Below, one piece after another: positions 1,094-28,601 of a stretch of 64,000 nucleotides of DNA (position 1 is its first letter; each line of letters opens with the position of its first letter). The notes beneath the pieces were generated by a model. It was given only the letters and a program-made list of their open reading frames with translations. It was not told where the DNA came from and did no database searches. The position numbers were made by a program, and so were the translations under genes. Source of the stretch: Amycolatopsis granulosa (GTDB taxonomy: Bacteria > Actinomycetota > Actinomycetes > Mycobacteriales > Pseudonocardiaceae); contig NZ_JAANOV010000001.1 in assembly GCF_011758745.1 (NCBI RefSeq), forward strand, positions 2,356,001-2,420,000, read 5' to 3'.

Positions 1094-1175
1094 GGCACCC
1101 AGATTGCCACATGCGCAGAGTTACGCAACGCGCGACCAAGTCGTCACGCAGCGGGCTCGGCTTAACCCGAATGGG

Positions 1176-2186: not shown

Positions 2187-2214
2187 GTGTCCAGGATGCC
2201 TAGCCACCCGTCGC

Positions 2215-2245
2215 TTGGCGAGCCGGCGATACCGGCGAGTAATCT
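2215..2245 (+). promoter_or_regulatory. candidate promoter of first TetR gene
   Basis: TTGGCG (2215-2220) and TAATCT (2240-2245), 19 bp apart, lie in the divergent gap and precede the GGGAGGG ribosome site of the TetR gene. Consensus match by eye only. Confidence 0.4.
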
Positions 2246-2270
2246 CGAATGGGCTCTTTGGGAGGGAAGC

Positions 2271-2909: not shown

Positions 2910-2910
2910 G

Positions 2911-3804: not shown

Positions 3805-4706
3805 CGGGCCCCCAGCAGGAAGGACTTGCGCCACCAGTAGGTCCCCGGCTGACCGACCAGCCCGGCGTCGTCCAGGAACGCCATGATGCGCTCACCGGAC
3901 CAGCGCAGCGTCTCGTGCCAGTGCGGGTTGGCCATCGCGGTCTGCCACGCCTCGCGCGCGTCGAGCCCGATGGCGCGGTAGACGCGCGGGTTGATCAGGC
4001 TGCGGGTGATCGCGAAGCTGACCACGGCGATGAGCCAGCGCTGGTAGAACAGCTCGGCCTTGCCGAGGCCGGCCATCCCGCGGGTGACCTCCTCGCGGGC
4101 GAACGTGACGTGCCGCGCCTCTTCCAGCACGTGGATGCGGTTGACCATGCGCACCAGCGGCTGGATGTTCTCGTCCGCCATGCTCTCCCGCTGGATGCGG
4201 TCCAGGATCTCCTCGGCGACCAGGATCGAGCCGTACAGCGCGGGGCCGTAGCCGATGAACGGCAGCAGCTTGCCCAGCCGGTGCACGATCTTCACCGGCC
4301 CGTAGGCGGGCGCACCGACGGTTTCCACCGAGCGCGCGAACATCGTGGAGTGGCGGCACTCGTCGGCGATCTCGGTGAGCGCGTACTGCACGTGCTTGCG
4401 GGTGGGGTCGGAGTTGTAGACCTCCTTGAGCAGCAGCTGCATCAGCAGCACCTCGAAGAAGATGCCGTTGCTGGCGATGCTGGCGAGCTCGTGCCTGCCC
4501 AGCTCGAGCCGCTGCTCGTCGCTGAGCCGGTCCCACAGGTGGGTGCCGTAGAGCGAGCTGCGGTGTTCCAGCTGGAAGGGCTTGCCCTCCGCGAGCGGGG
4601 CGGACCAGTCGATGTCCACCTCGGGGTCGTAGAACTTGCCGGCGGAGGACTTGAGCAGTCGGTCGGCGGTCTTCTCACGGCCGTGGTCGTCCAGCGTGCG
4701 CGTCAT
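3801..4706 (-). CDS. AurF-type diiron oxygenase
   Basis: 301 residues, the usual length for the AurF (p-aminobenzoate N-oxygenase-like) diiron family. Two iron-ligand motifs of the ExxRH type are visible: EIADECRH at 112-119 and EEARH at 195-199, with additional Glu in VAEE near 163-167. The start has a GGGGAG ribosome site. It is followed in an overlapping operon by an alpha/beta hydrolase and is divergent from a TetR gene across a short intergenic palindrome, which suggests induction by the regulator's ligand. Characterised AurF relatives oxidise arylamines; many actinobacterial copies are uncharacterised, so N-oxygenation here is only a possibility. Confidence 0.85.
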   Translation of the reverse strand: MTRTLDDHGREKTADRLLKSSAGKFYDPEVDIDWSAPLAEGKPFQLEHRSSLYGTHLWDRLSDEQRLELGRHELASIASNGIFFEVLLMQLLLKEVYNSDPTRKHVQYALTEIADECRHSTMFARSVETVGAPAYGPVKIVHRLGKLLPFIGYGPALYGSILVAEEILDRIQRESMADENIQPLVRMVNRIHVLEEARHVTFAREEVTRGMAGLGKAELFYQRWLIAVVSFAITRSLINPRVYRAIGLDAREAWQTAMANPHWHETLRWSGERIMAFLDDAGLVGQPGTYWWRKSFLLGAR

Positions 4707-4736
4707 CGCGTGCTCCCCACTGATTCTGTAACCCGT

Positions 4737-4749
4737 GGTAACAGTTACC
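4737..4749. promoter_or_regulatory. candidate TetR operator palindrome
   Basis: GGTAAC-A-GTTACC, a perfect 6-bp inverted repeat with a 1-bp centre. It sits in the 52-bp gap between the divergent diiron oxygenase and TetR genes. Position and symmetry fit autoregulation by the TetR protein together with control of the oxygenase-hydrolase operon. Confidence 0.55.
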
Positions 4750-4758
4750 TCTGGTAGC

Positions 4759-5526
4759 ATGAGGCGCGTGGCGGATCATGTCAAGCGCGGCGGCAAGCAC
4801 CCGACGGCCGGCGAACCGGCGACCGGTGACGCACGGCGGGACCGGTGGCGCAAGCACCGGGTGGAGCGGCGCGCCGAGTTCGTCGAGGCCGCGCTGAGGG
4901 CGCTGGCCGAGCACGGGCCGGACCTGGCGATGGACGACGTCGCCGTCGCGGCCGGCGTGACCAAACCGGTGCTGTACCGGCACTTCGCGGACAAGGCCGA
5001 CCTGTACGACGCGCTCGGGCAGCGCGGCACCGAGCTGCTGTTCTCGCGCCTGGTGCCGGCGATCAACGCCGAGCTGGCGCCGGTGCCGCGGATCCGCATG
5101 GCGCTGGATGCCTTCTTCACCGTCATCGAGGAGCACCCGAACCTGTACCGGCTGCTGGTGCGCGGGTCGTTCGCCGGCAAGCCGGCCGACGCCGACGTGG
5201 TGGCCGAGGACAAGGAACTGATCGCCACCGCGCTGACCGCCCTGCTCGGCGACTACATGCGGATGTTCAACATGGACTCCGGCGCCGCCGAGCCGTGGGC
5301 CTACGGCATCGTCGGGATGGTGCAGAACACCGGCGAGTGGTGGCTGGACCGCCGGTCGATGAGCCGGGACAGCGTCGTGGAGTACCTGACGCAGATCATC
5401 TGGGCCGCCATCGACGGGCTCGCCCGTCAGCACGGGGTCACGATCGACCCGAACAAGCCGCTGGAGGAGAACAAGATCGTCCAGCTCGGACGGGCGCACC
5501 CGAAGGAGGACACGGATGTCGGCTGA
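4759..5526 (+). CDS. TetR/AcrR family transcriptional regulator (Rv3208-like)
   Basis: 255 residues from ATG; a GTG nine bases downstream is an alternative start. A basic N-terminal extension of about 35 residues precedes the TetR domain, with the helix-turn-helix at about 57-78 (MDDVAVAAGVTKPVLYRHF). In Mycobacterium the regulator Rv3208 also sits next to the DUF3107 gene. It overlaps the following DUF4873 gene by 11 nt, so they form a small operon. The palindrome just upstream is its likely operator. Regulon inferred: the divergent oxygenase operon. Confidence 0.9.
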   Translation: MRRVADHVKRGGKHPTAGEPATGDARRDRWRKHRVERRAEFVEAALRALAEHGPDLAMDDVAVAAGVTKPVLYRHFADKADLYDALGQRGTELLFSRLVPAINAELAPVPRIRMALDAFFTVIEEHPNLYRLLVRGSFAGKPADADVVAEDKELIATALTALLGDYMRMFNMDSGAAEPWAYGIVGMVQNTGEWWLDRRSMSRDSVVEYLTQIIWAAIDGLARQHGVTIDPNKPLEENKIVQLGRAHPKEDTDVG

Positions 5527-5872
5527 CAGCGCTGACAGTGCTGACAACGCTGACCACACGGACGACGCTGAGGGCTACACCGGCCCGGCGACCGTGGTGA
5601 TCGACGGCAGGGAGATCGCCGTCGAGGTGGAGTTGCGCGGCCACTTCCAGCCGATCGACGGCTACTACCGCTGGTACGGCCGGATCGCGCCGAACGCCTC
5701 GCTGGACGCGGCGTGCGGCGGCCGGAAGAAGAAGGGCGAGATCCGCACCCCGGACGGCGCCGCGGCCGGCGAGCTGTCGGATCCCGACCCCTGGGGCCGC
5801 TACCGCATCCTCGGCACGAGCACGCCACCGTTCACGGTGCCGAAAACCCTCGCCCAGCTGGCCGATCAGTGA
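5516..5872 (+). CDS. DUF4873 domain protein
   Basis: 118 residues. The N terminus is a short Ser/Asp/Ala repeat (SADSADSAD). The rest matches DUF4873, with GYTGPATVVIDG near 20, a GHFQPIDGYYRWYGR segment and GRYRILGTSTPPF near the end. It begins inside the 3' end of the TetR gene with AAGGAGG about 7 nt before ATG. DUF4873 also occurs fused to flavin monooxygenases, so a role with the neighbouring diiron oxygenase is plausible. Biochemical function unknown. Confidence 0.8.
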   Translation: MSADSADSADNADHTDDAEGYTGPATVVIDGREIAVEVELRGHFQPIDGYYRWYGRIAPNASLDAACGGRKKKGEIRTPDGAAAGELSDPDPWGRYRILGTSTPPFTVPKTLAQLADQ

Positions 5873-5886
5873 AAGCCGGTCAGTGA

Positions 5887-5926
5887 AAAAAGGGGCGCCC
5901 GCCGAATTCGGCGGGCGCCCCTTTTT
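5887..5926. terminator. bidirectional intrinsic terminator
   Basis: A perfect 40-nt palindrome centred on GAATTC: A-run, GGGGCGCCCGCC, then its complement and a T-run. The symmetric A/T flanks make it work for both the DUF4873 gene (+) and the convergent DUF3107 gene (-). Confidence 0.9.
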
Positions 5927-5937
5927 CCGGGAAGACT

Positions 5938-6168
5938 TCAGGAGCCGACCGCGAACCCGACCCGGCGCACGTCCGAGGGGGCGATCTCGACGTAGGCGAT
6001 CCGGTCCGACGGGACCAGGAACTTCCGGCCCTTGTCGTCGGTGAGGCTGAACAGGCCGTCCGCGGTCTTCAGCGCGTCGGCGACCAGCTTCTCGACCTCC
6101 TCGGCGGACTGGCCACTGGACACCACCAGCTCACGCGGGGTGTCCTTGATGCCGATCTTGACCTCCAC
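5938..6168 (-). CDS. DUF3107 family small protein
   Basis: 76 residues from GTG, preceded by CGGAGG at good spacing. It matches the DUF3107 family of actinobacteria (mycobacterial Rv3208A/TB9.4): N-terminal MEVKIGIKDTPRELV, a helix around ADALKTADGL and SDRIAYVEIAPSDVRRVGFAVG at the end. Function unknown. The gene order TetR, DUF3107, ferritin-like, RhlE is the mycobacterial one. Confidence 0.93.
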   Translation of the reverse strand: MEVKIGIKDTPRELVVSSGQSAEEVEKLVADALKTADGLFSLTDDKGRKFLVPSDRIAYVEIAPSDVRRVGFAVGS

Positions 6169-6211
6169 CTGTTACCTCCGACTGGTTCTGCCACGTTCTG
6201 CAAGGCCCAGG

Positions 6212-6859
6212 CTAGCCCAGCCCGAGCACCTGCATCCGTTTGGTGTGCCCCTGCTGCAACCGGCGGAACAGTCCCGCGATTCCCGACAGGTCGCCCGAGG
6301 AGGACACGATCAACTCGGCCAGCGGGTCCCGCTCGGCCACCACGTACTGCGCCTGGGTGAGCGCCTCGCCGAGCAGCCGCCGCCCCCACAGGGCCAGCTT
6401 GTCCCGTGTCTTCGGATCGGCCTGGATGCCGGCGGCGACCTCGCGCTCGGCGAAGGCCGAGTGCCCGGTGTCGGCCAGCACGGTGACCACGAGATCCTTG
6501 GTCTCCGGGTCCAGCCAGCTGCCGACCTCCCGGTACAGGTCGGCCGCCAGCCCGTCGCCGACATACGCCTTGACCAGCGATTCCAGCCACGACCTGGGCG
6601 CGGTGGAGGCGTGCCAGGCGTCGAACCGGGCCACGAACGGCGCCATCGCGTCCTCGACCCGCCGGCCGTGGTCGGCGAGGAACTTCGCGAGCATCTCGTA
6701 GTGCCCGATCTCGGCGGCCGCCATCGACGACAACGCGGCGCGCCCGGCCAGGGTGGGCGCCTTGCGGGCGTCCTCCGCCATCCGGTCGAACGCGGACAAC
6801 TCGCCGTAGGCGATGACCCCGAGCAGGTCGACGACGCCTTCGCTGATCTCTCGTGTCAC
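6212..6859 (-). CDS. ferritin-like fold protein (Rv3210c-like)
   Basis: 215 residues from GTG. All-helical, with Glu and His spaced as in ferritin-like four-helix bundles: YGELSAFDRMAEDA near 18-31, SMAAAEIGHYEMLAKFLADHG near 44-65 and DTGHSAFAEREVAAG later. It corresponds in position to mycobacterial Rv3210c and resembles the ferritin-like domain related to tRNA-hydroxylating monooxygenases (MiaE-like). Metal binding is likely from the Glu/His pattern; the reaction is unknown. It is divergent from the RhlE helicase gene, with about 300 bp between them. Confidence 0.85.
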   Translation of the reverse strand: MTREISEGVVDLLGVIAYGELSAFDRMAEDARKAPTLAGRAALSSMAAAEIGHYEMLAKFLADHGRRVEDAMAPFVARFDAWHASTAPRSWLESLVKAYVGDGLAADLYREVGSWLDPETKDLVVTVLADTGHSAFAEREVAAGIQADPKTRDKLALWGRRLLGEALTQAQYVVAERDPLAELIVSSSGDLSGIAGLFRRLQQGHTKRMQVLGLG

Positions 6860-7157
6860 GGGCGTGAGCGTACCGCCGTGACGAAGAGACGAATCTTACG
6901 CGGACACACCGGGCCGAAATACCGGGGCCGGGCCGGTACCGGTTACAATTGGACGGGAAAGCTACCGCATCCGCAGTAGCGCGCCCCATCCGAGGCACCC
7001 CCGCCTCGACTCGCCGGAGGACGAGCAGACCCGGGCGCCATTGCGAGCGGCAGGTAATGCGCGTGCACGCCGTCCAGGCAATCCCGGTGGACCTTCCCGC
7101 CGGTTGAGTGCCCAGTCTCGACCAGGCCGTGCGCGCTGGTAGAGAGAGGCGATCACA
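6860..7157 (+). promoter_or_regulatory. promoter and long 5' leader of rhlE
   Basis: No gene is visible here. TACAAT at 6944-6949 is a good -10 hexamer; a start near 6956 would give an untranslated leader of about 200 nt before the helicase. The leader holds several GC-rich inverted stretches (for example GCGTGCACGC near 7060). Long structured leaders are known for RNA-helicase genes elsewhere; here it is an inference from spacing. Confidence 0.45.
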
Positions 7158-8804
7158 CTGACCGCGACCGAATCCGACCACAACCAGATCGACCCGGTGG
7201 CCCTGGAGCACAGCGAGACCGGGGTCCCCGATACCGACACCTCCCACCCGCTGCAGGCCGACCACCTCGAACCGGCCACGCCGACCTTCGCCGAGCTGGG
7301 CGTCCGCCCCGAGATCGTGCGGGCGCTCGCCGAAGCCGGCATCGAACGCACCTTCGCGATCCAGGCCCTGACCCTGCCGCTGGCGCTCGCCGGCGACGAC
7401 CTCATCGGCCAGGCCCGCACCGGCATGGGCAAGACCCTCGGGTTCGGCGTGCCGCTGCTCCAGCGCGTGGTGACGCCCGGTGACGGCACGCCGCAGGCAC
7501 TGGTCGTCGTGCCGACCCGCGAGCTGTGCCTGCAGGTCACGCGCGACCTCACCGACGCCGGCAAGCACCTGGACGTGCGCACCCTGGCGATCTACGGCGG
7601 CCGCCCGTACGAGCAGCAGATCAGCGCCCTGCGCAAGGGCGTCGACGTGGTCGTCGGCACCCCCGGCCGCCTGCTGGACCTGGCCGAACAGAAGGCGCTG
7701 GTGCTGGGCAAGGTCCGCGCCCTGGTGCTGGACGAGGCCGACGAGATGCTCGACCTGGGCTTCCTCCCGGACATCGAGCGCATCCTGGGCATGGTGCCCG
7801 ACCAGCGCCAGACGATGCTGTTCTCGGCCACGATGCCGGACCCGATCATCAAGCTGGCCCGCACCTTCCTCGACCGCCCCACGCACGTGCGGGCCGAGGA
7901 GAACGACTCGAGCGCGGTGCACGAGCGCACCGCGCAGTTCGCCTACCGGGCGCATTCGCTGGACAAGCCGGAGCTCATCGCCCGCGTCCTGCAGGCGAAG
8001 GACCGTGGGCTGACCATGATCTTCACCCGCACCAAGCGCACCGCGCAGAAGGTGGCCGACGACCTCGCCGAGCGCGGGTTCGCGGCGGCCGCGGTGCACG
8101 GTGACCTGGGCCAGGGCGCCCGCGAGCAGGCGCTGCGCGCGTTCCGCTCGGGCAAGGTGGACGTGCTGGTGGCCACCGACGTGGCGGCACGCGGGATCGA
8201 CGTCACCGACGTGACGCACGTGATCAACTACCAGACGCCCGAGGACGAGAGCACGTACGTGCACCGCATCGGCCGCACCGGCCGCGCGGGCAAGACCGGT
8301 GTCGCGATCACCCTGGTCGACTGGGACGACCTGCACCGCTGGCAGAGCATCAACGACGCGCTCAAGCTCGGCATGCCCGAGCCGGTGGAGACGTACTCGA
8401 CGTCGAAGCACCTGTTCAGCGACCTGGACATCCCGGCGGACGCCACCGGGCGGCTGCCGCTGTCCCAGCGCACCCGGGCCGGCCTGGCGGCCGAGCCGGA
8501 GGAGCAGATGGGCGGGCGCCGGCGGACCGCCGCGCCGCCCCGCGCCCGCCGGCGCACGCGGGGCGCGAAGACGACCGAGGGCGAAACGGCCGAAACCACC
8601 GAAACCGCTGGTGAGGAGCGCCGCCGGCGGCGCACCCGCGGCGGCAAGGCGACCGGTGAGACCTCCGGACCGGCGGAGAAGGGCCCGGCCGAGCGCGAGG
8701 CCGGCGAGTCCGCCGACCGTCCCGCCCGCCGTCGCCGCCGTCGCCGTCCGGGCTCGGCGGGGGCCGCGGCGAACACGTCTGATACACCGGGTTCGGCAGA
8801 CTGA
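7158..8804 (+). CDS. rhlE: DEAD-box ATP-dependent RNA helicase
   Basis: 548 residues from a CTG start, chosen because GAGAGG lies 8 nt upstream and the in-frame stop is only 18 nt away; a GTG 39 nt downstream is the alternative. Helicase motifs in order: Q motif region FAELGVRPEIVRALAEAGI; motif I ARTGMGKT at about 86-93; PTREL; TPGRLLD; DEAD at about 192-195; SAT; and motif VI HRIGRTGRAG near 375. The roughly 100-residue tail is strongly Arg-rich (RRRTRG and RRRRRRR runs), as in RNA-binding tails of actinobacterial RhlE/CsdA-type helicases. Likely roles are ribosome assembly and RNA decay. Positional match to mycobacterial Rv3211. Confidence 0.92.
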   Translation: MTATESDHNQIDPVALEHSETGVPDTDTSHPLQADHLEPATPTFAELGVRPEIVRALAEAGIERTFAIQALTLPLALAGDDLIGQARTGMGKTLGFGVPLLQRVVTPGDGTPQALVVVPTRELCLQVTRDLTDAGKHLDVRTLAIYGGRPYEQQISALRKGVDVVVGTPGRLLDLAEQKALVLGKVRALVLDEADEMLDLGFLPDIERILGMVPDQRQTMLFSATMPDPIIKLARTFLDRPTHVRAEENDSSAVHERTAQFAYRAHSLDKPELIARVLQAKDRGLTMIFTRTKRTAQKVADDLAERGFAAAAVHGDLGQGAREQALRAFRSGKVDVLVATDVAARGIDVTDVTHVINYQTPEDESTYVHRIGRTGRAGKTGVAITLVDWDDLHRWQSINDALKLGMPEPVETYSTSKHLFSDLDIPADATGRLPLSQRTRAGLAAEPEEQMGGRRRTAAPPRARRRTRGAKTTEGETAETTETAGEERRRRRTRGGKATGETSGPAEKGPAEREAGESADRPARRRRRRRPGSAGAAANTSDTPGSAD

Positions 8805-8849
8805 GGCCGACCGGCGCCGTCGGCGCCGTCGAACACCGGGAGCAGGAAC

Positions 8850-10202
8850 GTGAGCGAGCCCGTGGAAGGGGGACGTCATCGCCGTCCCGAGGGCGGTGAG
8901 ACCACCGGGCTGATCGGCGCGGAGGACGTGCTGGCCGGCGGCCCCGCCGCGGCTCACGGTACGAAGCCACGCCGGAGCCGCCCGTCGCCGTGGAACCGCC
9001 CGCGCGACCGGGTGACCGCGGTCGTGCTCGCCGTCGCCGTCATCGCCACCGGCCTCGCCGTCTGGGCCGGAAGCGAGAGCCGGGCCACGGTCCAGCAGAC
9101 CTCCGCGCCCGGCGCCCCGGTGCCGCTCGGGCCGGACGCGGTGCCGGCGACCCTGCGTGAGCTGTGGCAGGCGCCCAGCGGCGCGGCCCCGGTCCCGATC
9201 GCCGAGGGGACGGCCGTGGCCACCGCGAACGGCGACGAGATCACCGGCCGGGACCCGTTCACCGGCCAGGTCCGCTGGCGCTACGCCCGCGACCTCCCGT
9301 TGTGCACCGCGGCGGAGGTGTGGGGCCGCGTACTGGCGGTCTACCGCAAGGACGGCCTGGACGGTCGGTCCGGCTGCTCGGAGGTCGTCGGCCTCGGCAT
9401 CGACACCGGCCTGCGCAAGGCCCAGCGCACCGGCAGCGCCGAGCTGGGCACGGGGCTGGTGACCGACGGCAGCCAGGTCACCGCGACCGGCCCGGACCTG
9501 CTCGTGACGTGGCGGGACGACCTCGTCGAGACCAACGAGTACGGCCGGGTTCCCGCGCTGGTCAACCCGGACAAGCAGCCGCGCACCGGGTGCACCTACG
9601 GCTCGGTCGCGATGGCTTCCGGCCGGGTCGGCGTGATCGAACGCTGCGCGGGCGACCCGGGCGACCGGTTGACCGTGATGAAGGCTGTGCCGAAGGAGTC
9701 GGACCAGCCGCAGGTCTCGTTCAGCACGATCGTGGCCGGTCACCACGCGCAACTGGTCGCGATGTCCGGCGACTACACCGCGGTGGCGCTGCCAGACCAG
9801 CGGCTGCTGGTCCGTTACGACGCGGACGGCGAGCAGACGGCGGCGTACCCGCTGGACCTGCCGGCGCCGGACCTGGGGCAGGATCCGCCGGGCCGGGTTG
9901 CCGCGACGGAGTCCACCTCCGCGAACGTGTACTGGTACACCGGGTCGAAGGTGCTGGCGCTGTCCCGGGACAACCTGACTCCACTGTGGACGGTTAATGG
10001 CGCTCTCGGTCCGGGGGTCACCTTCGCGCACCAGCTGGTCGTGCCGATCCCGGGCGGGCTGGCGGTGCTGAACGAGTCGGACGGCTCGACGATCCGCACG
10101 ATCGCGGTGGACCGGCACGGCTACCCCGGCCCGGTGCGCCTGGCCGCACTGGGGCCGGTGCTGCTCGAACAGCGCGGCGGGACGCTGGCCGCGTTGTCGT
10201 GA
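8850..10202 (+). CDS. membrane-anchored beta-propeller (PQQ-like) protein
   Basis: 450 residues from GTG with a GGGAGCAGG site upstream. A cytoplasmic basic N terminus of about 50 residues is followed by one membrane segment (about 54-73). The extracellular region has repeated beta blades such as GDEITGRDPFTGQVRWRY and YTGSKVLALSRDNLTPLW, characteristic of PQQ/WD-like propellers. It lies directly after the helicase, as mycobacterial Rv3212 follows rhlE. Cys residues in CTAAEVW, SGCSEV, TGCTYG and IERCAG could pair outside the cell. Function unknown, perhaps an envelope scaffold. Confidence 0.85.
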   Translation: MSEPVEGGRHRRPEGGETTGLIGAEDVLAGGPAAAHGTKPRRSRPSPWNRPRDRVTAVVLAVAVIATGLAVWAGSESRATVQQTSAPGAPVPLGPDAVPATLRELWQAPSGAAPVPIAEGTAVATANGDEITGRDPFTGQVRWRYARDLPLCTAAEVWGRVLAVYRKDGLDGRSGCSEVVGLGIDTGLRKAQRTGSAELGTGLVTDGSQVTATGPDLLVTWRDDLVETNEYGRVPALVNPDKQPRTGCTYGSVAMASGRVGVIERCAGDPGDRLTVMKAVPKESDQPQVSFSTIVAGHHAQLVAMSGDYTAVALPDQRLLVRYDADGEQTAAYPLDLPAPDLGQDPPGRVAATESTSANVYWYTGSKVLALSRDNLTPLWTVNGALGPGVTFAHQLVVPIPGGLAVLNESDGSTIRTIAVDRHGYPGPVRLAALGPVLLEQRGGTLAALS

Positions 10203-11035
10203 CCGCTCAGTTGACGCCGCACGGCGCGGAGAAGGTCCGGGTGCGGGGCCTGGCGGCGTTGCGGACTCCGGCTCCGGCGAAGGCGACGGCCGTGCTGGTT
10301 CCCGGCTACACCGGGTCCAAAGAGGACTTCGCGCCACTGCTGGACGGATTGGCGGCCGGTGACTTCCGCGCTCTCGCCATCGACCTGCCGGGCCAGTTCG
10401 AGTCGCCCGGTCCGGCGGATGAGACCGCCTACCTGCCCGCACCGCTGGGCGCCGTGGTGGCCGGGCTGGTCGAAGACGTCGCGGCCGAGGGGCCGGTGGT
10501 GCTGCTCGGGCACTCCTACGGTGGCCTGGTCGCGCGCGCCGCGGTGCTGGCGGGCGCGCCGGCAACGGGGCTGACCCTGCTGGACAGCGGCCCGGCCGAG
10601 CTGCCCGACGGTGCCCGGCGGCAGGCGCTCGGCGCCGGTGAGCCGGTGCTGCGGGCGTCCGGCCTGGACGCCGTGTACCGGGTGCGCGAGCAGGTGAGCG
10701 CACGGTCACCGCTGTGGGCCGCGCTGCCACCTGATCTGAAGGACTTCCTGCGGGAGCGGTTCCTGGCCTCCAGCCCGGCCGGCCTGCTGGGGATGGCCGC
10801 GGGGCTGCGCACGGAACCGGACCGGGTCGAGGAGCTCGCCGCGACCGGCGTGCCGATCCTGGTGGTGGCCGGTGAGCGCGACGACGCGTGGAGCGTGCCT
10901 GCGCAGCGCGCGATGGCCGCGCGGCTCGGCGCCCCGTTCGAGCTCATCCCGGGCGCCGCGCACTCGCCGAACACCGAGAATCCCGCTGCACTCGTGCGTG
11001 TGCTGCTACGTGCGTGGCGGCAGTGGCTGGTGTGA
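10199..11035 (+). CDS. alpha/beta hydrolase
   Basis: 278 residues. Its GTG overlaps the TGA of the propeller gene (GTGA), so it is coupled to it. Catalytic marks: VLVPGYTGSKEDF oxyanion region, GHSYGG with Ser106, an acid in AGERDDAW and His in GAAHSPNTENP. The last 30 nt overlap the 3' end of the convergent M48 peptidase gene. Substrate unknown. Confidence 0.87.
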   Translation: MTAQLTPHGAEKVRVRGLAALRTPAPAKATAVLVPGYTGSKEDFAPLLDGLAAGDFRALAIDLPGQFESPGPADETAYLPAPLGAVVAGLVEDVAAEGPVVLLGHSYGGLVARAAVLAGAPATGLTLLDSGPAELPDGARRQALGAGEPVLRASGLDAVYRVREQVSARSPLWAALPPDLKDFLRERFLASSPAGLLGMAAGLRTEPDRVEELAATGVPILVVAGERDDAWSVPAQRAMAARLGAPFELIPGAAHSPNTENPAALVRVLLRAWRQWLV

Positions 11036-12928
11036 GACGCCCACGGTCATCAGCGGCGGCAGCGGGCAGTGCAGCATCGCGCAGACGGTGCGCAACAGCT
11101 CGCTCTCGGCCACGCCCACCACGCCGTCGTTGCCGATGACCGTGGTCAGCCCTTCCACCACCAGTGCCTTGTCCGGCCCGGCAAGACCGTCGAGGACCGG
11201 CCACACCCCGTCCAGCGCCTGCCACGCCTGAGCGGGCGGCTGGAACGGGACCGTCGCCACGAGCACGACCCGCGACAGCCCGGCGCGGAACGCGGCCTCG
11301 GCCGCCGCCTGCTCCCGGTGCCCGACCGCGGCGACCACGGCGAACAGCGCGGCGACCGCGGGTCCGGCGTGCGGCAGCGCGATCCGCCGCACCGGCCACG
11401 GCGGCCGGTGGTGCACGGCCTCGTGCAGGTCACGACTGAGCAAAGTGGACAGGCAATACTCGAAGGTGTCCACGTTCCCGTCGAGACGGACCACTTCGGA
11501 CAGCACCGCCTGGACCGCGTGCAGCTCGTGCGCGGGCCGTCCGCTCAACGCGGGGAAGGCCAGTTCGGTGAGCGGCAGCCGCAGCGCGGGATCGAGCCCG
11601 CGGAGCCGCTCGCCCTCGCGCCACGCGGCATCGGCGAGCGGGGTGCCCAGCCGGGCCGCGAGCAGCCGGTACTGCGCCGTGCGCATGTGCGGTTGCGCCG
11701 ACAACAGCAGGCCGAGGACCAGCGGCACGACGGTTTCGGCTCGCCGCGCCTGCGCCTGCACGTCCTCCGGGATGCCGCGCAGCAAGCCGCCGGCATGACC
11801 GAAGGAGCCGCTCGCCGGGTTGCCGATCGACGCGACCACCGTGGCGGGTGGCGCGGCCACCGAGGCCGGTACGGCCACCGGCGCCGCGGGACCGGCCAGG
11901 CCGAGCGCCCGGTCTTCGTCCGTGCCGGACGGTGGCACGGCCGTCCACCGCGCGCCCAGCTCGTCCAGCTCGCGCACGTCGAAGGCCGGGTCGAGCAGCT
12001 GGATGCGGCGCTCCAGCGGCGGGTGGGTGGCGAACAGGGGCAAGGACTTCCGGCCTTCCCCGAACAGCATGTGGCTCACGTCCTCGGCTTTCGCCGCGTG
12101 CAACCGGGAACCGGCGGGCACCCCGCCGATCTTCTTCAGCGCACCCGCGAGCCCTGCGGTCTGCCGGGTGAACTGCACGGCCGAGGCGTCGGCGAGGAAC
12201 TCCCGCTGACGGGACACGCCGGCTTTGATGAGCCGTCCGATGAGGACACCGGCGTACCCGGCGGCCACCGCGGCCAGCGCCGGGAGGACCAGCGGGCCGG
12301 CCTGGCGCCTGCTGCCGCGCCCGGACAGCAGCATCCGGCCGAGGACGGCGAGGCCGACGATGCCGGCGAGCACGCCCATCAGCCGGATGTTGAGCCGCAT
12401 GTCGCCGTTGACGATGTGGCTGAACTCGTGCGCGACCACGCCCTGGAGCTCGTCGCGGTTGAGCCGGGCGAGGGCCCCGCCGGTGACGACGATGGCCGCG
12501 TTGGCGGGAGTCCACCCGGCCGCGAAGGCGTTGATGCCGGGCTCGTGCGGCAGCACGTACAGCTGCGGCACCGGCATGCCGGAGGCGATCGCGATCTCCT
12601 CGACCACGTTCCGCAGGCGCCGCAGGCCCGGGGCCGCGGTGTCCGGCGGGACCACCACCCCGCCCAGGGCCACGGCGACCTTGCCGCCGCCACCACGGCG
12701 CAGCAGCAGGGTGCGGATCCACGAGGTGAGACCGATGACGAGCACGGTGAGCAGACCGGCCGCGACCAGCACGCGCACGGCAACGCCGGTGGGCCGGTGC
12801 CCCAGCCGGAAGGCCACCCAGACGGCCAGGTCCACGAACGCGACGATGATGAGCACGGCGAGCGCGAACAGCCACACCAGCCGCGCCGAGGCGCGGCGCA
12901 CTTCCAGTTGTCGTTCGAAGAAGTTCAT
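11006..12928 (-). CDS. M48 family (HtpX-like) membrane zinc metalloprotease
   Basis: 640 residues, much longer than HtpX (about 290). Two N-terminal membrane segments (about 18-40 and 52-72), then the zinc site HEFSH at 167-171 with the third ligand Glu243 in QREFLADASA. Two more hydrophobic stretches lie near 183-200 and 213-232. The C-terminal 300 residues are an extra domain rich in Ala/Leu/Arg that I cannot assign. The gene is 3 nt after a LemA gene; LemA/M48 pairs are common and suggest joint membrane-protein quality control. The start ATG follows directly on the upstream stop. Confidence 0.9.
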   Translation of the reverse strand: MNFFERQLEVRRASARLVWLFALAVLIIVAFVDLAVWVAFRLGHRPTGVAVRVLVAAGLLTVLVIGLTSWIRTLLLRRGGGGKVAVALGGVVVPPDTAAPGLRRLRNVVEEIAIASGMPVPQLYVLPHEPGINAFAAGWTPANAAIVVTGGALARLNRDELQGVVAHEFSHIVNGDMRLNIRLMGVLAGIVGLAVLGRMLLSGRGSRRQAGPLVLPALAAVAAGYAGVLIGRLIKAGVSRQREFLADASAVQFTRQTAGLAGALKKIGGVPAGSRLHAAKAEDVSHMLFGEGRKSLPLFATHPPLERRIQLLDPAFDVRELDELGARWTAVPPSGTDEDRALGLAGPAAPVAVPASVAAPPATVVASIGNPASGSFGHAGGLLRGIPEDVQAQARRAETVVPLVLGLLLSAQPHMRTAQYRLLAARLGTPLADAAWREGERLRGLDPALRLPLTELAFPALSGRPAHELHAVQAVLSEVVRLDGNVDTFEYCLSTLLSRDLHEAVHHRPPWPVRRIALPHAGPAVAALFAVVAAVGHREQAAAEAAFRAGLSRVVLVATVPFQPPAQAWQALDGVWPVLDGLAGPDKALVVEGLTTVIGNDGVVGVAESELLRTVCAMLHCPLPPLMTVGVSHQPLPPRT

Positions 12929-12931
12929 GGG

Positions 12932-13519
12932 TCAGAAGGAGATCCGGGGCGCCTCGCGCTGTTCGGGCGACTCGATCTCCAGCAAGGCGGCCGGGGCGAA
13001 CCCGGACACGCTCGCGATCAGGTTGCCGGGGAACACCTCGCGCTTGGTGTTGTAGGCCATCACCGAGTCGTTGTAGCCCTGCCGCGCGAAGGCCACGCGG
13101 TTCTCGGTGGAGGTCAGTTCCTCGGACAGCTGCATCATGGTCCGGTCGCCCTTGAGGTCCGGATAGGACTCGGCGAGCGCGAACATGCGGCCCAGGGACC
13201 GGGTGAGGGTTTGCTCGGCGCCGGCGAGCCGCCGCATCGCGCCGGGCTCGCCCGGGTTCCCGCGGGCGGCGGCCCGGGCGCGGACGGCGCCGCCGCGGGC
13301 CGCGACGACGGCTTCGAGCGTCTGCCGCTCGTGCTGGAGGTAGCCGCGGGCGATCTCCACCAGGTTCGGGATCAGGTCGTGCCGGCGCGTCAGCTGCACG
13401 TCGATCTGCGCGAACGCGTTCCGGTACGCGTTGCGTCGCTTGACCAGCCCGTTGTAGATCCCGATCGTCGCGATGGCGAGCACCAGCACGACGACCACGA
13501 CCAGGATCGCCACTGTCAC
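12932..13519 (-). CDS. LemA family protein
   Basis: 195 residues from GTG. One N-terminal membrane segment (about 2-21), then the helical LemA domain: YNGLVKRRNAYRNAFAQIDVQLTRRHDLIPNLVEIARGYLQHE is the family signature region (about 22-64), followed by NRVAFARQGYNDSVMAYN and the conserved EVFPGNL. It forms an operon with the M48 peptidase that follows. LemA proteins are membrane-anchored with the helical domain outside; their role is unclear. Confidence 0.92.
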   Translation of the reverse strand: MTVAILVVVVVLVLAIATIGIYNGLVKRRNAYRNAFAQIDVQLTRRHDLIPNLVEIARGYLQHERQTLEAVVAARGGAVRARAAARGNPGEPGAMRRLAGAEQTLTRSLGRMFALAESYPDLKGDRTMMQLSEELTSTENRVAFARQGYNDSVMAYNTKREVFPGNLIASVSGFAPAALLEIESPEQREAPRISF

Positions 13520-13650
13520 CCCAGTACCGTTCCCTTGAACCGTGTTCTCGGCGGGAACGATAGGGGTGCCGCGGAACCGGCGGAGTCCAGTTCGCGAAGA
13601 TCGCCTCGGCTGTACCCGTTAGGGTGAAATGGGTGAGCCGGGGGCCGGGT

Positions 13651-13992
13651 CTAGGCCCACCAGAAGGTCCACAGCGCCACGGCAACGATGACGACGACCG
13701 CGACCCCCGCGACACCGGCCACCGGACCGTCCCGCCGATCGGCGGCGCGTTGCGCGAGGAGGGCGAGCACGGCGGCGACGGGGTGAGCGATCATCGGAAC
13801 GGCACCGGGGCCGGGCACGTCGAGGAAGGTGCACAGCAGCCCGGCGCCCAGAACCACGACCGCGAGCGCGACGAGACCCGCGGCGAGCGAGCCGGTGAAC
13901 CCACGCCACCAGCGGGACATCCACCGCCGCCCACCGGCCGGGGGCCGTGCCAGCTCCTCGGTGTCCATCGTTTCGTCGCTCACCAGTGCCAC
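13651..13992 (-). CDS. small membrane protein, unassigned
   Basis: 113 residues from a GTG with GGGGAGG 5-6 nt upstream; GTG codons at 13983 and later are alternatives. A soluble N terminus with a Trp/Arg-rich patch (RRWMSRWWRG) precedes three hydrophobic segments: about 33-53, 61-79 and 93-111. I do not recognise a family. It lies upstream of lemA on the same strand with a 130-bp gap, which may hold the lemA promoter, so cotranscription is uncertain. Confidence 0.6.
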   Translation of the reverse strand: MALVSDETMDTEELARPPAGGRRWMSRWWRGFTGSLAAGLVALAVVVLGAGLLCTFLDVPGPGAVPMIAHPVAAVLALLAQRAADRRDGPVAGVAGVAVVVIVAVALWTFWWA

Positions 13993-14004
13993 CGGATTCC
14001 TCCC

Positions 14005-14415
14005 CACCGAGCCGCCGTCGAAGATTCCACCATGCCCCACGCCCCGGGGAACAGGACCACCCGGGCCGGGACCTCGTGCGCGTGCCCGTGCCATGGCGTC
14101 CGGGTCGGAGACCCACCGGCGCCACCGACGCCACCGGCCCGCCACAACGCCCTGCTCCGCCGGCCCGGTGCAGCCCAGCACTCCCGGCCTCTCCCCCGGC
14201 CCGCGGGAACCCACCCCGAGCCGGCCGCCCAGCCACCGTTCCCCACCTGCGCCCTGCCCTTCCGGCTCACCACGTCCGCGCACCCCGGCAACCGGCAGAC
14301 GCACCCGACCACGAACCCGGCCGACGCTCGCCCCTCATCTCCGGCGCCGGTCCGCCGGATCCCAGCTCCCCGCGGCCACCGTCGGTAACCCATCCGCGAA
14401 CCCGTCCGCGAACCC
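14005..14415. other. intergenic stretch without a supported gene
   Basis: About 410 bp in which C strongly exceeds G on the + strand and codon-position GC is not gene-like. Open frames exist on both strands but have no ribosome sites or recognisable domains. A short direct repeat (TCCGCGAACCC twice) occurs near 14393-14415. Confidence 0.5.
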
Positions 14416-15373: not shown

Positions 15374-16108
15374 GTGTTGACGTTCGAAACCGCGCCTGCC
15401 GAACTGGACGTGCTCGACGAGGAACTGGGGCTCGGGAGGTTCGTCTATCCGCACCGGATCCCCTTCGTCAGCGGCACCCACACCGAACGCGCCGAGCAGC
15501 GGCAGCGCGTGTTCGACCACTGGCAGCGCCTCGGGCGCATGTCGCGGGACCGGCTGCGCGGCGAGTTCGAGGACCTGCTGCGGTTGTGGGCGCGCCCCAC
15601 GGTTGTCGTCACCCAGGTCCTCGCCGAGCTGTCGGCGGACGTCACCGTCCTGTCCCGCGGCGGGTGGACCGGTGAGCACGGCGTGCTGAGCCGTCAGACC
15701 GGGGACCGGGTCAGGTTCACCGAGCTGCGTGCGGGCCAGGTGCTTCCCCAGCTCCTCGACGCCCTGCCGGAGGTGCCGCCGGCACGGATGACGCCGGTGA
15801 GCTACGTGTCGCCCGGCCGCGATGACGCCGATCCGTTCGGCGGTGCGGAGCCGCCGCGCGAGAAACGGCTCGCGGACCGGTACTTCACGGTGCCGCCGCA
15901 GCGCGCCGGGGTGATCTCGTGCTCCGTGCGGGGCACCGACGCGGGTCGGCTGACCTGGTTCGACACCCCGGACGGCCGCTTCTTCACGACAGTCGAGACC
16001 CTGCCCGACGGTGCCCAGCGGCACACGTTCACCCCGGCCGACCGGGCACGCATCGGGCAGTGGGTGCGCGACCACGTCAACCGGCTCCTGTCCGAGGCGA
16101 ACCGGTAA
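15374..16108 (+). CDS. espG: EspG family ESX secretion-associated protein
   Basis: 244 residues. GTG was chosen over an upstream TTG because GGGGGG precedes it at good spacing and the N terminus LTFETAPAELDVLDEELGL is the family pattern. Family features include the beta-rich start, RGGWTGEHGVLSRQ in the middle, and RLTWFDTPDGRFFT with a C-terminal helix (RARIGQWVRDHVNRLL). In mycobacteria EspG proteins are cytosolic chaperones that bind PPE proteins before export through ESX. The adjacent downstream PPE-like gene is the obvious client. No ESX machinery genes lie in the window. Confidence 0.85.
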   Translation: MLTFETAPAELDVLDEELGLGRFVYPHRIPFVSGTHTERAEQRQRVFDHWQRLGRMSRDRLRGEFEDLLRLWARPTVVVTQVLAELSADVTVLSRGGWTGEHGVLSRQTGDRVRFTELRAGQVLPQLLDALPEVPPARMTPVSYVSPGRDDADPFGGAEPPREKRLADRYFTVPPQRAGVISCSVRGTDAGRLTWFDTPDGRFFTTVETLPDGAQRHTFTPADRARIGQWVRDHVNRLLSEANR

Positions 16109-16167
16109 CACGATGAGCGGGAAAGCGCTACCGTGAGCAACCGGGAGCCAGGGGAGGACGAACAACC

Positions 16168-17607
16168 ATGACACAGCCGGACAGCGGGTACTCCCGCCGC
16201 AGGTACGAGGCCGAGGTCTACGCCGAAACGGCGGGCAAGTCGGCCGGGAAGTTCTTCCGCCCGGACCCCGCGGCGGTCGCGGGCAAGTACTCGACCAAGT
16301 CGGCCGAGATCTACACGACCAAGCTACAAGCCGAGGGCGGCGGCTACCGCGACGGGCTGGCTCCGTCGGACATGCGGTACGAGTCGATGCCGCACCAGCA
16401 GCTGGCCGAGATGGTCAAAGCCTCCTCGCCAGAGGAGGTCGACGAGCAGGGCGTCATCGTCAACGACCTCGGCAACGCGTTCGGCGAGATGTCGACCGCG
16501 CTCCGGCAGGGGGTCGCCAAGGAGCAGGCCGGCTGGCAGGGCAACGGCGCGTCGTCGGCGTTCGGGTACTTCACCACCCTGGCGGGCTGGGCGGACACCT
16601 CGCGCGACGCGGCGTTCCTGTCGGCCAACCGGTATTCGCAGACCTCCGCGGCGCTGGTCGACGCACGCAACAAGATGCCGGAACCGGCGGGCCGCACGGT
16701 CGAGGAGTCGGTCGCCACCGCGCGCCGGCAACTGGTCGGCGGTGACTGGGAGGCCGCGAGCGCCACCATGAACGACATGCAGAACCAGGCCGCGCTGCAG
16801 CACCAGGCGCAGCAGCAGGCCGCGGCGGTCCTGGCGCAGCGGGACGTCATGCTCCACTCGGGCGGCTCCACCCAGCCGGTCTACGCGACGCCGACCGCGC
16901 CGGCCGGCACCGGTCAGCGCACCGCTCCGCAGTTCCCCTCCGACGACCACACCGTCGCGGCCCACGCGGGCGGTGTCGGCCCGATGGGCGCGCCGACGGG
17001 AACCGTGCGGACCACGGCGGGCATCGCACCGCCCAGCACGGCACTGCCCAGCGGCGCCGGATCGGCCACCGGTGCCGTGCCGCCCGGCGGCTGGGCCGAC
17101 GCGGGCGGTGGCTGGGGTCGTTCCCCCGCGCCCACCGTGCCCGGCAGCAGCACCGCGGCATCGGCAGGTGCGGGGATGATGCCGGTCGCCCCGGGCCAGG
17201 CCGAGCAGAACCGCACGGCACCGCGGCCGGGTTCGGGTGGGGGCCGGACGGGATCGTCTCCGTACGGGGGCGGTGGCGGGGGCGGCCGCGCCGCCGGGGG
17301 CGCGGGCGGCCGTCTCGGCGGTGCCGCCGGTGCGGAACGGGCTCCCGGCCGCAGGGCCGGGATCGGCGAGCCCGGCGCGCGGGCCGCGGCGGAAAGCGCC
17401 GGCAGCGGCCGGGCGGGAGCCGCCGGGAAGGCGGGCACGTCCGGGGCCCCGGGCGTGGGTCCGGCGGGCGGCAAGAAGAAGGACGAGGACAAGGACCACG
17501 AGCGCGCCGCGTACCTGCTCGAGGACGACCCGGACAGCATCTTCGGCCTCGACGGCGCCACGGACGAGAACGGCAACCGCATCAGCCCGCCGGTGATCGG
17601 CGGGTGA
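16168..17607 (+). CDS. PPE-like / WXG-containing putative ESX substrate
   Basis: 479 residues. A helical N-terminal region of about 230 residues contains GWQGNG (Trp123) between helices, the WXG turn of ESX substrates, and a Gln/Ala-rich helix (QHQAQQQAAA). Residues about 235-440 are low complexity, rich in Gly, Ala, Pro and Ser. The last 35 residues are acidic and ordered-looking (AYLLEDDPDSIFGLDG ... PPVIGG), a tail common in Pseudonocardiaceae homologues to my knowledge. It follows espG by 59 bp with GGGAGCCAGGGGAGG as ribosome site. Secretion via a distant ESX locus is inferred. Confidence 0.75.
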   Translation: MTQPDSGYSRRRYEAEVYAETAGKSAGKFFRPDPAAVAGKYSTKSAEIYTTKLQAEGGGYRDGLAPSDMRYESMPHQQLAEMVKASSPEEVDEQGVIVNDLGNAFGEMSTALRQGVAKEQAGWQGNGASSAFGYFTTLAGWADTSRDAAFLSANRYSQTSAALVDARNKMPEPAGRTVEESVATARRQLVGGDWEAASATMNDMQNQAALQHQAQQQAAAVLAQRDVMLHSGGSTQPVYATPTAPAGTGQRTAPQFPSDDHTVAAHAGGVGPMGAPTGTVRTTAGIAPPSTALPSGAGSATGAVPPGGWADAGGGWGRSPAPTVPGSSTAASAGAGMMPVAPGQAEQNRTAPRPGSGGGRTGSSPYGGGGGGGRAAGGAGGRLGGAAGAERAPGRRAGIGEPGARAAAESAGSGRAGAAGKAGTSGAPGVGPAGGKKKDEDKDHERAAYLLEDDPDSIFGLDGATDENGNRISPPVIGG

Positions 17608-27072: not shown

Positions 27073-28473
27073 TCAGCCGCGCTCCCCGCTTCCCGGTGAC
27101 GTGGTGGCCAGCGGGGCCGGCCGGCCGCGGAGCCTGCGGAACGCCGCGTCGCTGAGGGCCCGGCCGCACACCGTCACCGAGCCCACGGCCCGCCCGTCGG
27201 CGTCGAGGATCTGCACGTCGTAGCGCGGCCGGTTGCCGCGCTCGCCCGCCTTGGCCCAGCTCAGGACCGCTCCGGCGGACGGTCCAGCGGGCACCGTGGC
27301 GGCGAGCCGGGTGAGCACGAAGCGGGTGCCCTCCTGCCGCTGGTTGTCCGCGTACTCCAGGAGGGTCACGAACTGCCGCGCCGCTTCGATGAGCCGTTCC
27401 GCGGTCCGCCCGCCGTCGAGGTGGTGCCCGGCGGGCGGCGGCAGCACGGTCACACGCCAGTCGTGTTCGCTCTCCACGAGGTCACCGACGAACACGTTCT
27501 CCGCGCGCCTGCGGTGCACGAGCCGTTGATCGACGGGCTGCACGGGCCAGGAGGGCGACCCCGGCGAGGTCTCGGCCGGGTCGCCTTGCTCGATCGTGCC
27601 GGTCATGATCGTTCTGCCGTCCTGGTCGGCGTGGACCTGCCACAGCCGGCCGGTGGAGTCCGGCGAGTCGGCGGACAGCCGGACCGGCGCGTCCAGCTCG
27701 CCCATGCCGCGGAAGTCGAGCGTCAGGGTGACGGCGGGGTCCGCGCCGGCCGGGCGGACGAGGTCGAGCGCGGCGCTCAGGAGCATCATGCCGGGCAGGT
27801 GGTCGAGTTCGTGGTCGAAGAAGAACGGATCGTCGAGGTCGGCCAGGAGCTCACGGGTCCGCCGCTCGGGCCGCGGCCACCGGTCGACCACGAGCACGTC
27901 GGCGAGCGGCGCGCGCCGGGCGGGGCGGAACGATCCGCCGTCGTGGTAGGCGGTCGGGATCAGCACACCCTGCCGGATCCCGGGCGGCAGGCCGAGGATG
28001 TCCGCGATCTCGGCCTCCCGGCGCAGGTGGCAGGTGGTCCACGCGGTGCCGAGCCCGCGTGTGCGAGCGGCGAGCATGTAGCTCCAGGCGGCCGGCAGCA
28101 ACGACCCCCACGAACCGGCCTGGCTGCCCTCGGGCAGCCGCGGCGCGACGAGGCACGGCAGCACGAGCACGGGCACGCGGTGCAGGTTGTCGGCCAGGAA
28201 CCGGGCGCTGTCCAGGTCCCGGGACGGTCCCGGGTTGCCCAGCTCCGCGACGTACTCGGCGAAGCACCGCCGGTACACCTCGGCGATCCTGGCGCGCTGC
28301 ACCTCGTCCCGCACGACGATCCACCGCCACGGCTGGCGGTTGCCGCCGTTGGGCGCCTGCAAGGCGACCTCCAGGCACTCTTCGATCACCTGCTCCTCGA
28401 CGGGCACGTCGAGCAGCAGCCGCCTGCGAACGGCCCGAGTGGTGGTGAGCACCTCATCGACCGGCAATGTCAT
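27073..28473 (-). CDS. nitroreductase fused to AfsA-like hotdog repeats in permuted order
   Basis: 466 residues; ATG with GGAAGGAG upstream. Residues 1-200 are an FMN nitroreductase: TTRAVRRRLL, APNGGNRQPWRW (40-51), and a C-terminal segment with LGTAWTTCHL. Residues about 211-296 match the C-terminal AfsA repeat (PFFFDHELDHLPGMMLLSAA). Residues about 310-450 match the N-terminal AfsA repeat (VHRRRAENVFVGD at 319-331, ERLIEAARQ, FRRLRG). Canonical AfsA has these in the other order, so the region looks circularly permuted. AfsA makes the butenolide core of gamma-butyrolactone signals, and later a reductase saturates the double bond; the fused flavin domain could do that step. Product and activity unknown. 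Confidence 0.85.
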   Translation of the reverse strand: MTLPVDEVLTTTRAVRRRLLLDVPVEEQVIEECLEVALQAPNGGNRQPWRWIVVRDEVQRARIAEVYRRCFAEYVAELGNPGPSRDLDSARFLADNLHRVPVLVLPCLVAPRLPEGSQAGSWGSLLPAAWSYMLAARTRGLGTAWTTCHLRREAEIADILGLPPGIRQGVLIPTAYHDGGSFRPARRAPLADVLVVDRWPRPERRTRELLADLDDPFFFDHELDHLPGMMLLSAALDLVRPAGADPAVTLTLDFRGMGELDAPVRLSADSPDSTGRLWQVHADQDGRTIMTGTIEQGDPAETSPGSPSWPVQPVDQRLVHRRRAENVFVGDLVESEHDWRVTVLPPPAGHHLDGGRTAERLIEAARQFVTLLEYADNQRQEGTRFVLTRLAATVPAGPSAGAVLSWAKAGERGNRPRYDVQILDADGRAVGSVTVCGRALSDAAFRRLRGRPAPLATTSPGSGERG

Positions 28474-28489
28474 CGGAATCTCCTTCCGC

Positions 28490-28504
28490 AATACCAACGG
28501 TATT
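28490..28504. promoter_or_regulatory. candidate operator of the nitroreductase-AfsA gene
   Basis: AATACC-AAC-GGTATT, a perfect 6-bp inverted repeat 17 nt upstream of the ATG, where a repressor would block transcription or translation. The ACC/GGT arms resemble sites of TetR-family butyrolactone receptors only loosely. Confidence 0.45.
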
Positions 28505-28567
28505 TCGACATTACCGAACGAGGCGTCACCCTCGTGGGCCAATTCACACTTCGCTTTGGTAACGACA

Positions 28568-28601
28568 GAGGGCCACTCCTCCAGCCGGAGGAATGGCCCT
28601 C
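28568..28601 (-). terminator. hairpin after the sugC gene
   Basis: GAGGGCCA and TCCTCC pair with GGAGGA and TGGCCCTC across an AGCC loop, with one mismatch between the two stem parts. It lies 20 nt past the sugC stop; there is no U-run. Confidence 0.65.

Follow-up and report, generated by a model that had tools for sequence, protein, structure and literature searches.

AfsA proteins start the best-known bacterial hormone pathway. The 64,000-nucleotide stretch of Amycolatopsis granulosa DNA analysed here (hereafter the window) holds a gene whose product joins a nitroreductase (NTR) to both halves of an AfsA-like protein, apparently in the wrong order. Such a fusion brings AfsA chemistry and a flavin nitroreductase together in one protein that can be purified, and raises the questions of whether the reversed order is genuine, how the protein came about, and which reaction it may carry out.

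The gene itself is well defined (Table 1). Read from 28473 to 27073 on the minus strand, the window contains an uninterrupted frame of 466 codons and a stop, as seen in the open reading frames; the plus-strand reading of 27073-28473 is not the gene. The initial annotation of this locus placed the gene at 27073..28473 and quoted its motifs, both rightly, and left the strand unmentioned. The frame is full-length and intact in four genomes and is under purifying selection in all three parts, so that it is not a chance frame. Across six genome pairs, dN/dS ranges from 0 to 0.23 in the NTR part, from 0.07 to 0.24 in the half that resembles the N-terminal half of AfsA (N-type), and from 0.20 to 0.44 in the half that resembles the C-terminal one (C-type), which is higher than in the other two and makes the C-type half the least constrained part. 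Upstream, the leader of about 77 bases (28474..28550), compared among the four fusion-carrying genomes, may contain a promoter of its own; a search of this leader for sigma-70-type promoters matched none. The leader also includes a palindrome-like sequence, TTCGGTAATGTCGAA, present in all four aligned genomes, which is a possible regulator site. Further upstream, a strong inverted repeat (28568-28601, 15-base arms with one G-T pair, read by eye) stands directly after the stop of an ABC-transporter ATPase gene, and may end the ABC-transporter operon ahead of the fusion gene.

Table 1. Features of the fusion gene and its product in the window, with the basis of each assignment.
Feature	Position	Strand	Basis
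Gene for the 466-aa fusion of NTR and permuted AfsA	27073..28473	-	Open frame, four genomes, purifying selection
Ribosome-binding site AAGGAG	28480..28485	-	6 nt before ATG 28473
Upstream leader, largely conserved in the 4 fusion-bearing genomes	28474..28550	-	Alignment
Nitroreductase domain, residues 1-190	27904..28473	-	PF00881, 87.5 bits; 61% identity to G202 NTR
C-type AfsA hotdog half, residues 205-298, comes first	27580..27861	-	Half-HMM scores
DHELDHLPGM loop motif, residues 220-229	27787..27816	-	Alignments and residue tally
Linker between AfsA halves	27529..27579	-	Expanded in A. thermalba homologue
N-type AfsA hotdog half, residues 316-450, comes second	27124..27528	-	Half-HMM scores
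EAARQ catalytic-type motif of N-type half, residues 363-367	27373..27387	-	Residue tally

The first domain belongs, by score, to the Pfam family Nitroreductase (PF00881), which matches residues 19-168 over positions 9-159 of its 167, with a whole-protein E-value of 1.5e-24 and 87.5 bits against a curated cut-off of 23.5. The NTR domain is thus whole, and the nearest curated names are BluB and the C-terminal domain of FbiB; however, it is an equivalog of neither (49 bits against a cut-off of 150 for BluB, TIGR02476, and 34 bits against 249.55 for the C-terminal domain of FbiB), and it differs from the rest of the family in its fusion to an AfsA part. It contains the stretches TTRAVRRR, NRQPW and GLGTAW, and stretches like these presumably bind FMN; FMN binding by the fused domain is predicted on this basis. 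In the remainder of the chain, both Pfam and the half HMMs described below find two AfsA hotdog halves. The Pfam family AfsA (PF03756) matches it in two stretches (1.1e-10, 42 bits, with a whole-protein score over the curated cut-off). The NCBIfam model for ScbA/BarX (NF041195) also matches in two stretches, the better of which pairs residues 191-294 with profile positions 183-289 of 290, and therefore sets the C-terminal half of AfsA in the middle of the protein. With 87 bits against an equivalog cut-off of 200, the protein falls short of the ScbA/BarX equivalog score.

To define the order of the halves, a canonical AfsA set was drawn from the genomes of the family and the class, where 29 candidates carried the motif of at least one half. 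The 26 that were kept were selected for the N half preceding the C half, and are hence no measure of how usual that order is; L047 and L077 were dropped for lack of a C-type motif and L079 because its N-type motif was not in range. Separate HMMs were then built from the N and the C halves. The first half of the window protein scored 83.3 bits with the canonical C-half HMM and -1.2 with the N-half HMM, while its second half scored 34.6 bits with the N-half HMM and 3.7 with the C-half HMM. We use pAfsA (permuted AfsA) for any AfsA protein with its C-type half before its N-type half. In all 11 permuted proteins scored, the first halves gave 42.5-88.5 bits to the C HMM and at most 1.0 to the N HMM, and the second halves 26.3-49.8 bits to the N HMM and at most 6.8 to the C HMM. 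From 22 further pAfsA loci, 20, split by motif, agree (first halves 44.1-79.2 bits to C and at most 6.3 to N, second halves 22.8-68.4 bits to N and at most 12.6 to C). The remaining two, L159 and L173, were missed by the motif split and have the C-type ahead of the N-type half by domain positions. A near copy of the fusion in genome G018 was excluded from these half counts. Neither in the window protein nor in any of the 33 other pAfsA examined does the N-type half come before the C-type half.

The NCBIfam model leads to the same result. NF041195 matches a canonical control protein (L061) in a single stretch, positions 1-289, with 326 bits, whereas three unfused pAfsA are matched in two stretches each, with the best stretches at swapped ends: residues 133-276 against positions 4-156 in the protein of Streptomyces durmitorensis, and early residues against late profile positions in L065 and L083. 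The four pAfsA scanned with this model scored 67-93 bits against the curated cut-off of 200. In a tree of 76 halves, the permuted first halves and the canonical C halves fall on one side with a support of 99.8; since an AU test that instead grouped the first halves with the N halves returned p 0.06, the tree is not decisive by itself, but the HMM scores are clear. There is therefore little doubt, as far as sequence comparison can tell, that the AfsA halves stand in reversed order, C-type then N-type. The agreement of Pfam, NCBIfam and the half HMMs upholds the initial annotation, which had described an NTR fused to both AfsA halves in reversed order, and the HMM scores exclude the outcome that would have undone it, namely an order that turned out normal after correct alignment. 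The initial annotation also knew of no described enzyme with this half order, and among the open-access papers listed in literature searches none was found to describe the reversed order, nor the fusion, nor the gene cluster discussed below.

The initial annotation had tied the reversed order to the fusion. The order is certainly present in the fusion, but it is also common to 31 pAfsA proteins of other genomes that are not fused to an NTR. The fusion was found in 4 of 19 genomes of the genus (the window's genome, G018, Amycolatopsis deserti and A. thermalba), and a contig scan recovered no other full fusion among its 12 loci. The A. thermalba homologue of the fusion (L023, 6001-7881) carries an enlarged linker between its AfsA halves, which contains a repeated segment, and an extra partial copy of the 3′ end of the fusion gene lies downstream. 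The domain order was also followed across the family, a check proposed at the outset, and unfused pAfsA with reversed halves occur in at least 4 of 297 family genomes, one of which has two copies. A class-wide search found pAfsA in at least 3 of 394 genomes besides the window's own, and searches of two further families in at least 11 of 200 (the three class-wide ones included) and at least 14 of 297 genomes; these counts are lower bounds, because only part of the candidates was scored in each genome. One pAfsA is located on plasmid p1 of S. durmitorensis, annotated as 'AfsA-related hotdog domain-containing protein'. In a phylum-wide search at 1e-20, the window's own genome was the sole match of 396, with six candidates scored per genome, so that copies may be missed, and no relative was found in the viral contigs searched.

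A tree built from 32 pAfsA and 26 canonical proteins separates the two kinds by a branch with a support of 100. The fused proteins (support 100) nest among the other pAfsA (an inner set of 25 is supported at 94). Since the pAfsA lie on one branch and the fused proteins within it, the permutation would most simply have happened once and the fusion later. Judged from these sequences, pAfsA is a family of its own within AfsA, reaching well beyond the fusion. We hold the anatomy and the family history of pAfsA with high confidence.

The genes around unfused pAfsA bear on both the origin and the function of the fusion. The neighbourhoods of the 31 unfused pAfsA were analysed over about 8 kb on each side where the contig allowed (L083, L085, L087, L159, L170 and L175 have shorter stretches). 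The queries came mostly from L065, L067 and L087, which are themselves among the counted loci, and the counts were identical with trimmed queries. A PEP-synthase-like (PEPS) gene was found near 29 of the 31 pAfsA, an isoprenylcysteine-methyltransferase-like (ICMT) gene near 28, a UbiA-like gene near 25, a P450 gene near 23, and a KASIII-like gene near 16; an NTR gene was present near 16, the other 15 having none in the stretch. Altogether, 29 of the 31 loci have at least one other cluster gene nearby, and two (L064 and L173) have none in the stretches around pAfsA. The cluster NTR is encoded on the same strand as pAfsA in 16 of 16 cases and within 1.5 kb in 10, and in L065 and L067 it stands directly upstream of pAfsA, which is the order of the fusion. 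As a control, 29 other AfsA-half loci, almost all of them canonical, were examined over flanks of 1.5 kb; 2 of the 29, and in addition one remnant locus, have an NTR there. These two control loci, L125 (G037) and L126 (G155), carry a canonical-order AfsA adjoining not only the NTR but also UbiA-like and PEPS-like genes; therefore, this type of cluster exists with normal AfsA too. In the cluster of S. durmitorensis (132221-142543 of the plasmid p1 record), nine genes received Pfam names, and the one UbiA-like protein scanned scored below the Pfam cut-off (28.6 against 34.2). For the most part, pAfsA is found in a conserved set of biosynthesis genes that seems to be undescribed, and these conserved neighbours point to an unexplored class of products in Streptomyces and other actinobacteria.

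Two other loci deserve mention. L068 (G160, 127-14378) combines a canonical-order AfsA with a PEPS-like gene, more PEPS-like pieces, and UbiA-like and KASIII-like genes, with no NTR found in that interval. In L042 (G129, 1378-2061, plus strand), a frame of 227 amino acids joins the C-type half of a pAfsA to the last 80 or so residues of an NTR, and is apparently a deletion remnant of a pAfsA-NTR cluster.

The NTR subfamily to which the fused domain belongs is widespread in the family, with 46 of 150 genomes matched at 1e-35, and separate relatives there are up to 63-64% identical to the fused NTR, which in turn is 61% identical to the separate NTR adjoining pAfsA in G202. In a first NTR tree, the cluster NTRs formed several lineages; a single clade uniting the 4 fused NTRs with the 7 cluster NTRs from the first set was rejected (p 6.6e-89). 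A second tree was built with 9 further cluster NTRs and with 6 rows dropped, one very long and five duplicate or near-duplicate; L026 is not part of A2. For a clade of the fused NTR with that of G202, p rose from 0.04 in the first tree to 0.57 in the second, where the clade is not rejected, so that the fused NTR may stem from a cluster NTR. AfsA-type genes seem to have gained an NTR neighbour on more than one occasion, and this recurrence argues for a functional link between NTR and AfsA. Two neighbours in the cluster seem to have been joined at a later stage to give the fusion, a reading that is conditional as regards the NTR part; the joining would be a late step because the reversed order is shared with 31 unfused pAfsA, 29 of which have cluster genes nearby.

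The surroundings of the fusion are quite different. None of the other pAfsA-cluster genes is present in the 64-kb window, and the other three fusion loci, in stretches of 13-14 kb, contain neither PEPS nor ICMT. In the window's genome, a single PEPS-like match (27.8 bits) falls on the end of PEPS, a search for ICMT, run without a positive control, gave no match, and no second AfsA was found. Given this weak PEPS match and the missing ICMT match, the substrate of the fused enzyme may since have changed. The best of 97 matches to ScbR/ArpA-type receptors in this genome reached 69.8 bits against a cut-off of 150, so the genome differs from gamma-butyrolactone systems in having no ScbR-type receptor over the family cut-off; a diverged one is possible. 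The fusion is a free-standing offshoot of the mostly cluster-borne pAfsA family.

With respect to the possible reaction, the residues of the active site are of great interest. Like AfsA, ScbA, BarX and GblA, the pAfsA proteins have both hotdog halves, with VHR, RLR and [ED]xxRQ in the N half and DHxxDHxPG in the C half; unlike them, their halves are reversed and the C half lacks the Arg of LLEAARQ, and the window protein in particular is fused to an NTR and far below the equivalog cut-off. After DHELDHLPGM, it has LLSAALDL where canonical proteins have LLEAARQ. The residues were tallied in 32 pAfsA and 26 canonical proteins, L159 and L173 being read by eye outside the tally. In the canonical set, the E, R and Q of the E..RQ motif are present in all 26 N halves, and the E and R in 23 and 24 of the 26 C halves, respectively. 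The [ED], R and Q of [ED]xxRQ persist in the N-type half of all 32 pAfsA (34 of 34 with L159 and L173). From the C-type half, the matching Arg is gone in all 32 (34 of 34) and the acid (Glu or Asp) in 25 of 32, with 7 keeping it; the motif is accordingly found in one half instead of both. In ScbA, we take the residues of note to be E78, E240 and R243. All 32 pAfsA retain DHxxDHxP in the C-type half (33 of 34 with the two read by eye, L173 having DRPVDH), a figure that is partly due to selection, since the 20 added pAfsA were split by their DH motif.

The retention of [ED]xxRQ in the N-type half, together with the loss of the matching Arg in the C-type half, suggests by analogy that pAfsA has one composite active site instead of two. 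The residues of one active site of FabA come from different subunits, and double hotdogs are described as generally keeping one site per dimer (PMC2698920). The eukaryotic hydratase 2, as presented there, is likewise a double hotdog chain with apparently one full set of catalytic-type residues, but it belongs to another subfamily, and the half order of pAfsA is swapped relative to its own canonical family (PMC2698920). With its halves swapped and a single catalytic set left, this natural family offers a ready test of which of the two sites does the work. Structure prediction and searches were less informative: the AlphaFold model of the whole fusion (11 alignment rows) gave pLDDT mostly of 50-90 in the NTR blocks and 21-51 in the AfsA blocks, and that of the AfsA part (3 alignment rows) a mean of 39.8, with a low-confidence secondary structure of a long helix and then four strands, twice. 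A sequence search of the PDB found no AfsA structure, and gave one marginal match worth naming (3koj) for the AfsA part.

From this evidence, the fusion gene would encode a two-part enzyme formed by an NTR and a circularly permuted AfsA-type double hotdog. The two hotdog halves would pack as a pseudo-dimer, and for that reason a swap in their order need alter only the linker. The surviving site would consist of the DHxxDHxP loop of the C-type half facing the [ED]xxRQ of the N-type half, and the mirror site would be gone, with its Arg lost and its Glu mostly lost. This composite site is likely to act on a beta-ketoacyl thioester, joining or processing it in the way that AfsA does with a C3 phosphate, and to yield a butenolide-like product, which the fused FMN-type NTR would then reduce or, less likely, oxidise. 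The initial annotation had suggested that the one protein could make a reduced butyrolactone-like signal; such a product is hypothetical, and the NTR step may run in either direction. The fusion would have arisen in a small group of Amycolatopsis by the joining of two neighbouring genes of the pAfsA cluster, and would have been kept as a free-standing gene. One outline of the A-factor pathway has GblA/AfsA join a fatty-acid and a glycerol derivative by condensation, with a reductase acting afterwards on the double bond of the ring (PMC5735094); this pairing makes condensation followed by a redox step the simplest reading here. The butenolide reductase GblC/BprA of that outline acts after AfsA and reduces the ring double bond, as the fused NTR might do (PMC5735094). 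Taken together, an AfsA-like acyl condensation coupled to an FMN redox step, with a permuted pseudo-dimer and an origin by the joining of neighbours, is in our judgement a reading as apt to be right as wrong, and the condensation and redox reaction itself, argued by analogy, has an about even chance at best.

A wider proposal is tentative and falls somewhat short of an even chance: pAfsA would form a new class of AfsA enzymes, circularly permuted and with a single site, that is central to a recurrent actinobacterial cluster (KASIII-like, ICMT-like, NTR, PEP-synthase-like, UbiA-like and P450 genes), and the Amycolatopsis fusion would be its minimal, one-protein version, condensing and then redox-tailoring a butenolide-like signal in a genome without canonical AfsA. 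The salinipostin (spt) phosphotriester cluster of Salinispora is AfsA-dependent and has phosphorylated butyrolactone-like products; the PEPS-like gene of the pAfsA cluster would suit a phosphotransfer step.

Among the alternatives, the one that survives best, although rather unlikely, is that pAfsA performs another hotdog reaction, as a dehydratase, thioesterase or cyclase acting on the ketide of the KASIII-like partner, and that the NTR oxidises or reduces the product without any butenolide being formed. The 67-93 bits of the four pAfsA scanned, far from the ScbA/BarX cut-off of 200, would fit such a reaction, as would the P450, PEPS, ICMT and UbiA-like genes of the cluster, which are not named in the A-factor pathway outline (PMC5735094). 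Nonetheless, both halves are specifically AfsA-like, and canonical-order AfsA is found in similar clusters with NTR, UbiA-like and PEPS genes (L125 and L126). It is also unlikely that the NTR is the sole enzyme and the AfsA-like part a non-catalytic module that binds lipids or acyl-thioesters, delivering the substrate or fixing the oligomer. All 32 tallied proteins retain [ED]xxRQ in the N-type half, this half is under strong purifying selection, and the presence of PEPS near 29 of the 31 unfused pAfsA is expected of a pathway enzyme; what a binding module would explain is a C-type half that lacks the catalytic-type Arg in 32 of 32 and the Glu/Asp in 25 of 32 and that shows the weakest constraint within the fusion (dN/dS 0.20-0.44), as well as the lack of a clear match to PEPS and ICMT in the window's genome. 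That the gene is the decaying remnant of a lost cluster seems improbable: the intact frame in four genomes, dN/dS values of 0-0.44 in all three parts, and the conserved leader and ribosome-binding site argue otherwise, even though the window has no other cluster gene, PEPS and ICMT were not clearly found in the genome, the fusion occurs in just 4 of 19 genomes of the genus, and an apparent pAfsA and NTR remnant does exist in G129 (L042). Lastly, there is next to no chance that the reversed order is an artefact of alignment or annotation and that the last 260 residues belong to an unrelated hotdog family: the modest AfsA Pfam score (42 bits) and the p 0.06 of one forced alternative grouping in a quick halves tree are set against the HMM scores of both halves, the NCBIfam best stretches at swapped ends in three unfused relatives with a single stretch in the canonical protein, and the grouping of the first halves with canonical C halves (support 99.8).

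A minor observation concerns the NTR subfamily apart from pAfsA. In L123 (G072), two subfamily NTRs (5901-6527 and 16104-16688) are separated by about 10 kb, and neither AfsA nor any other cluster gene was matched in this locus; paired NTR matches spaced by 10-12 kb are also present in G034, G102, G123 and G139.
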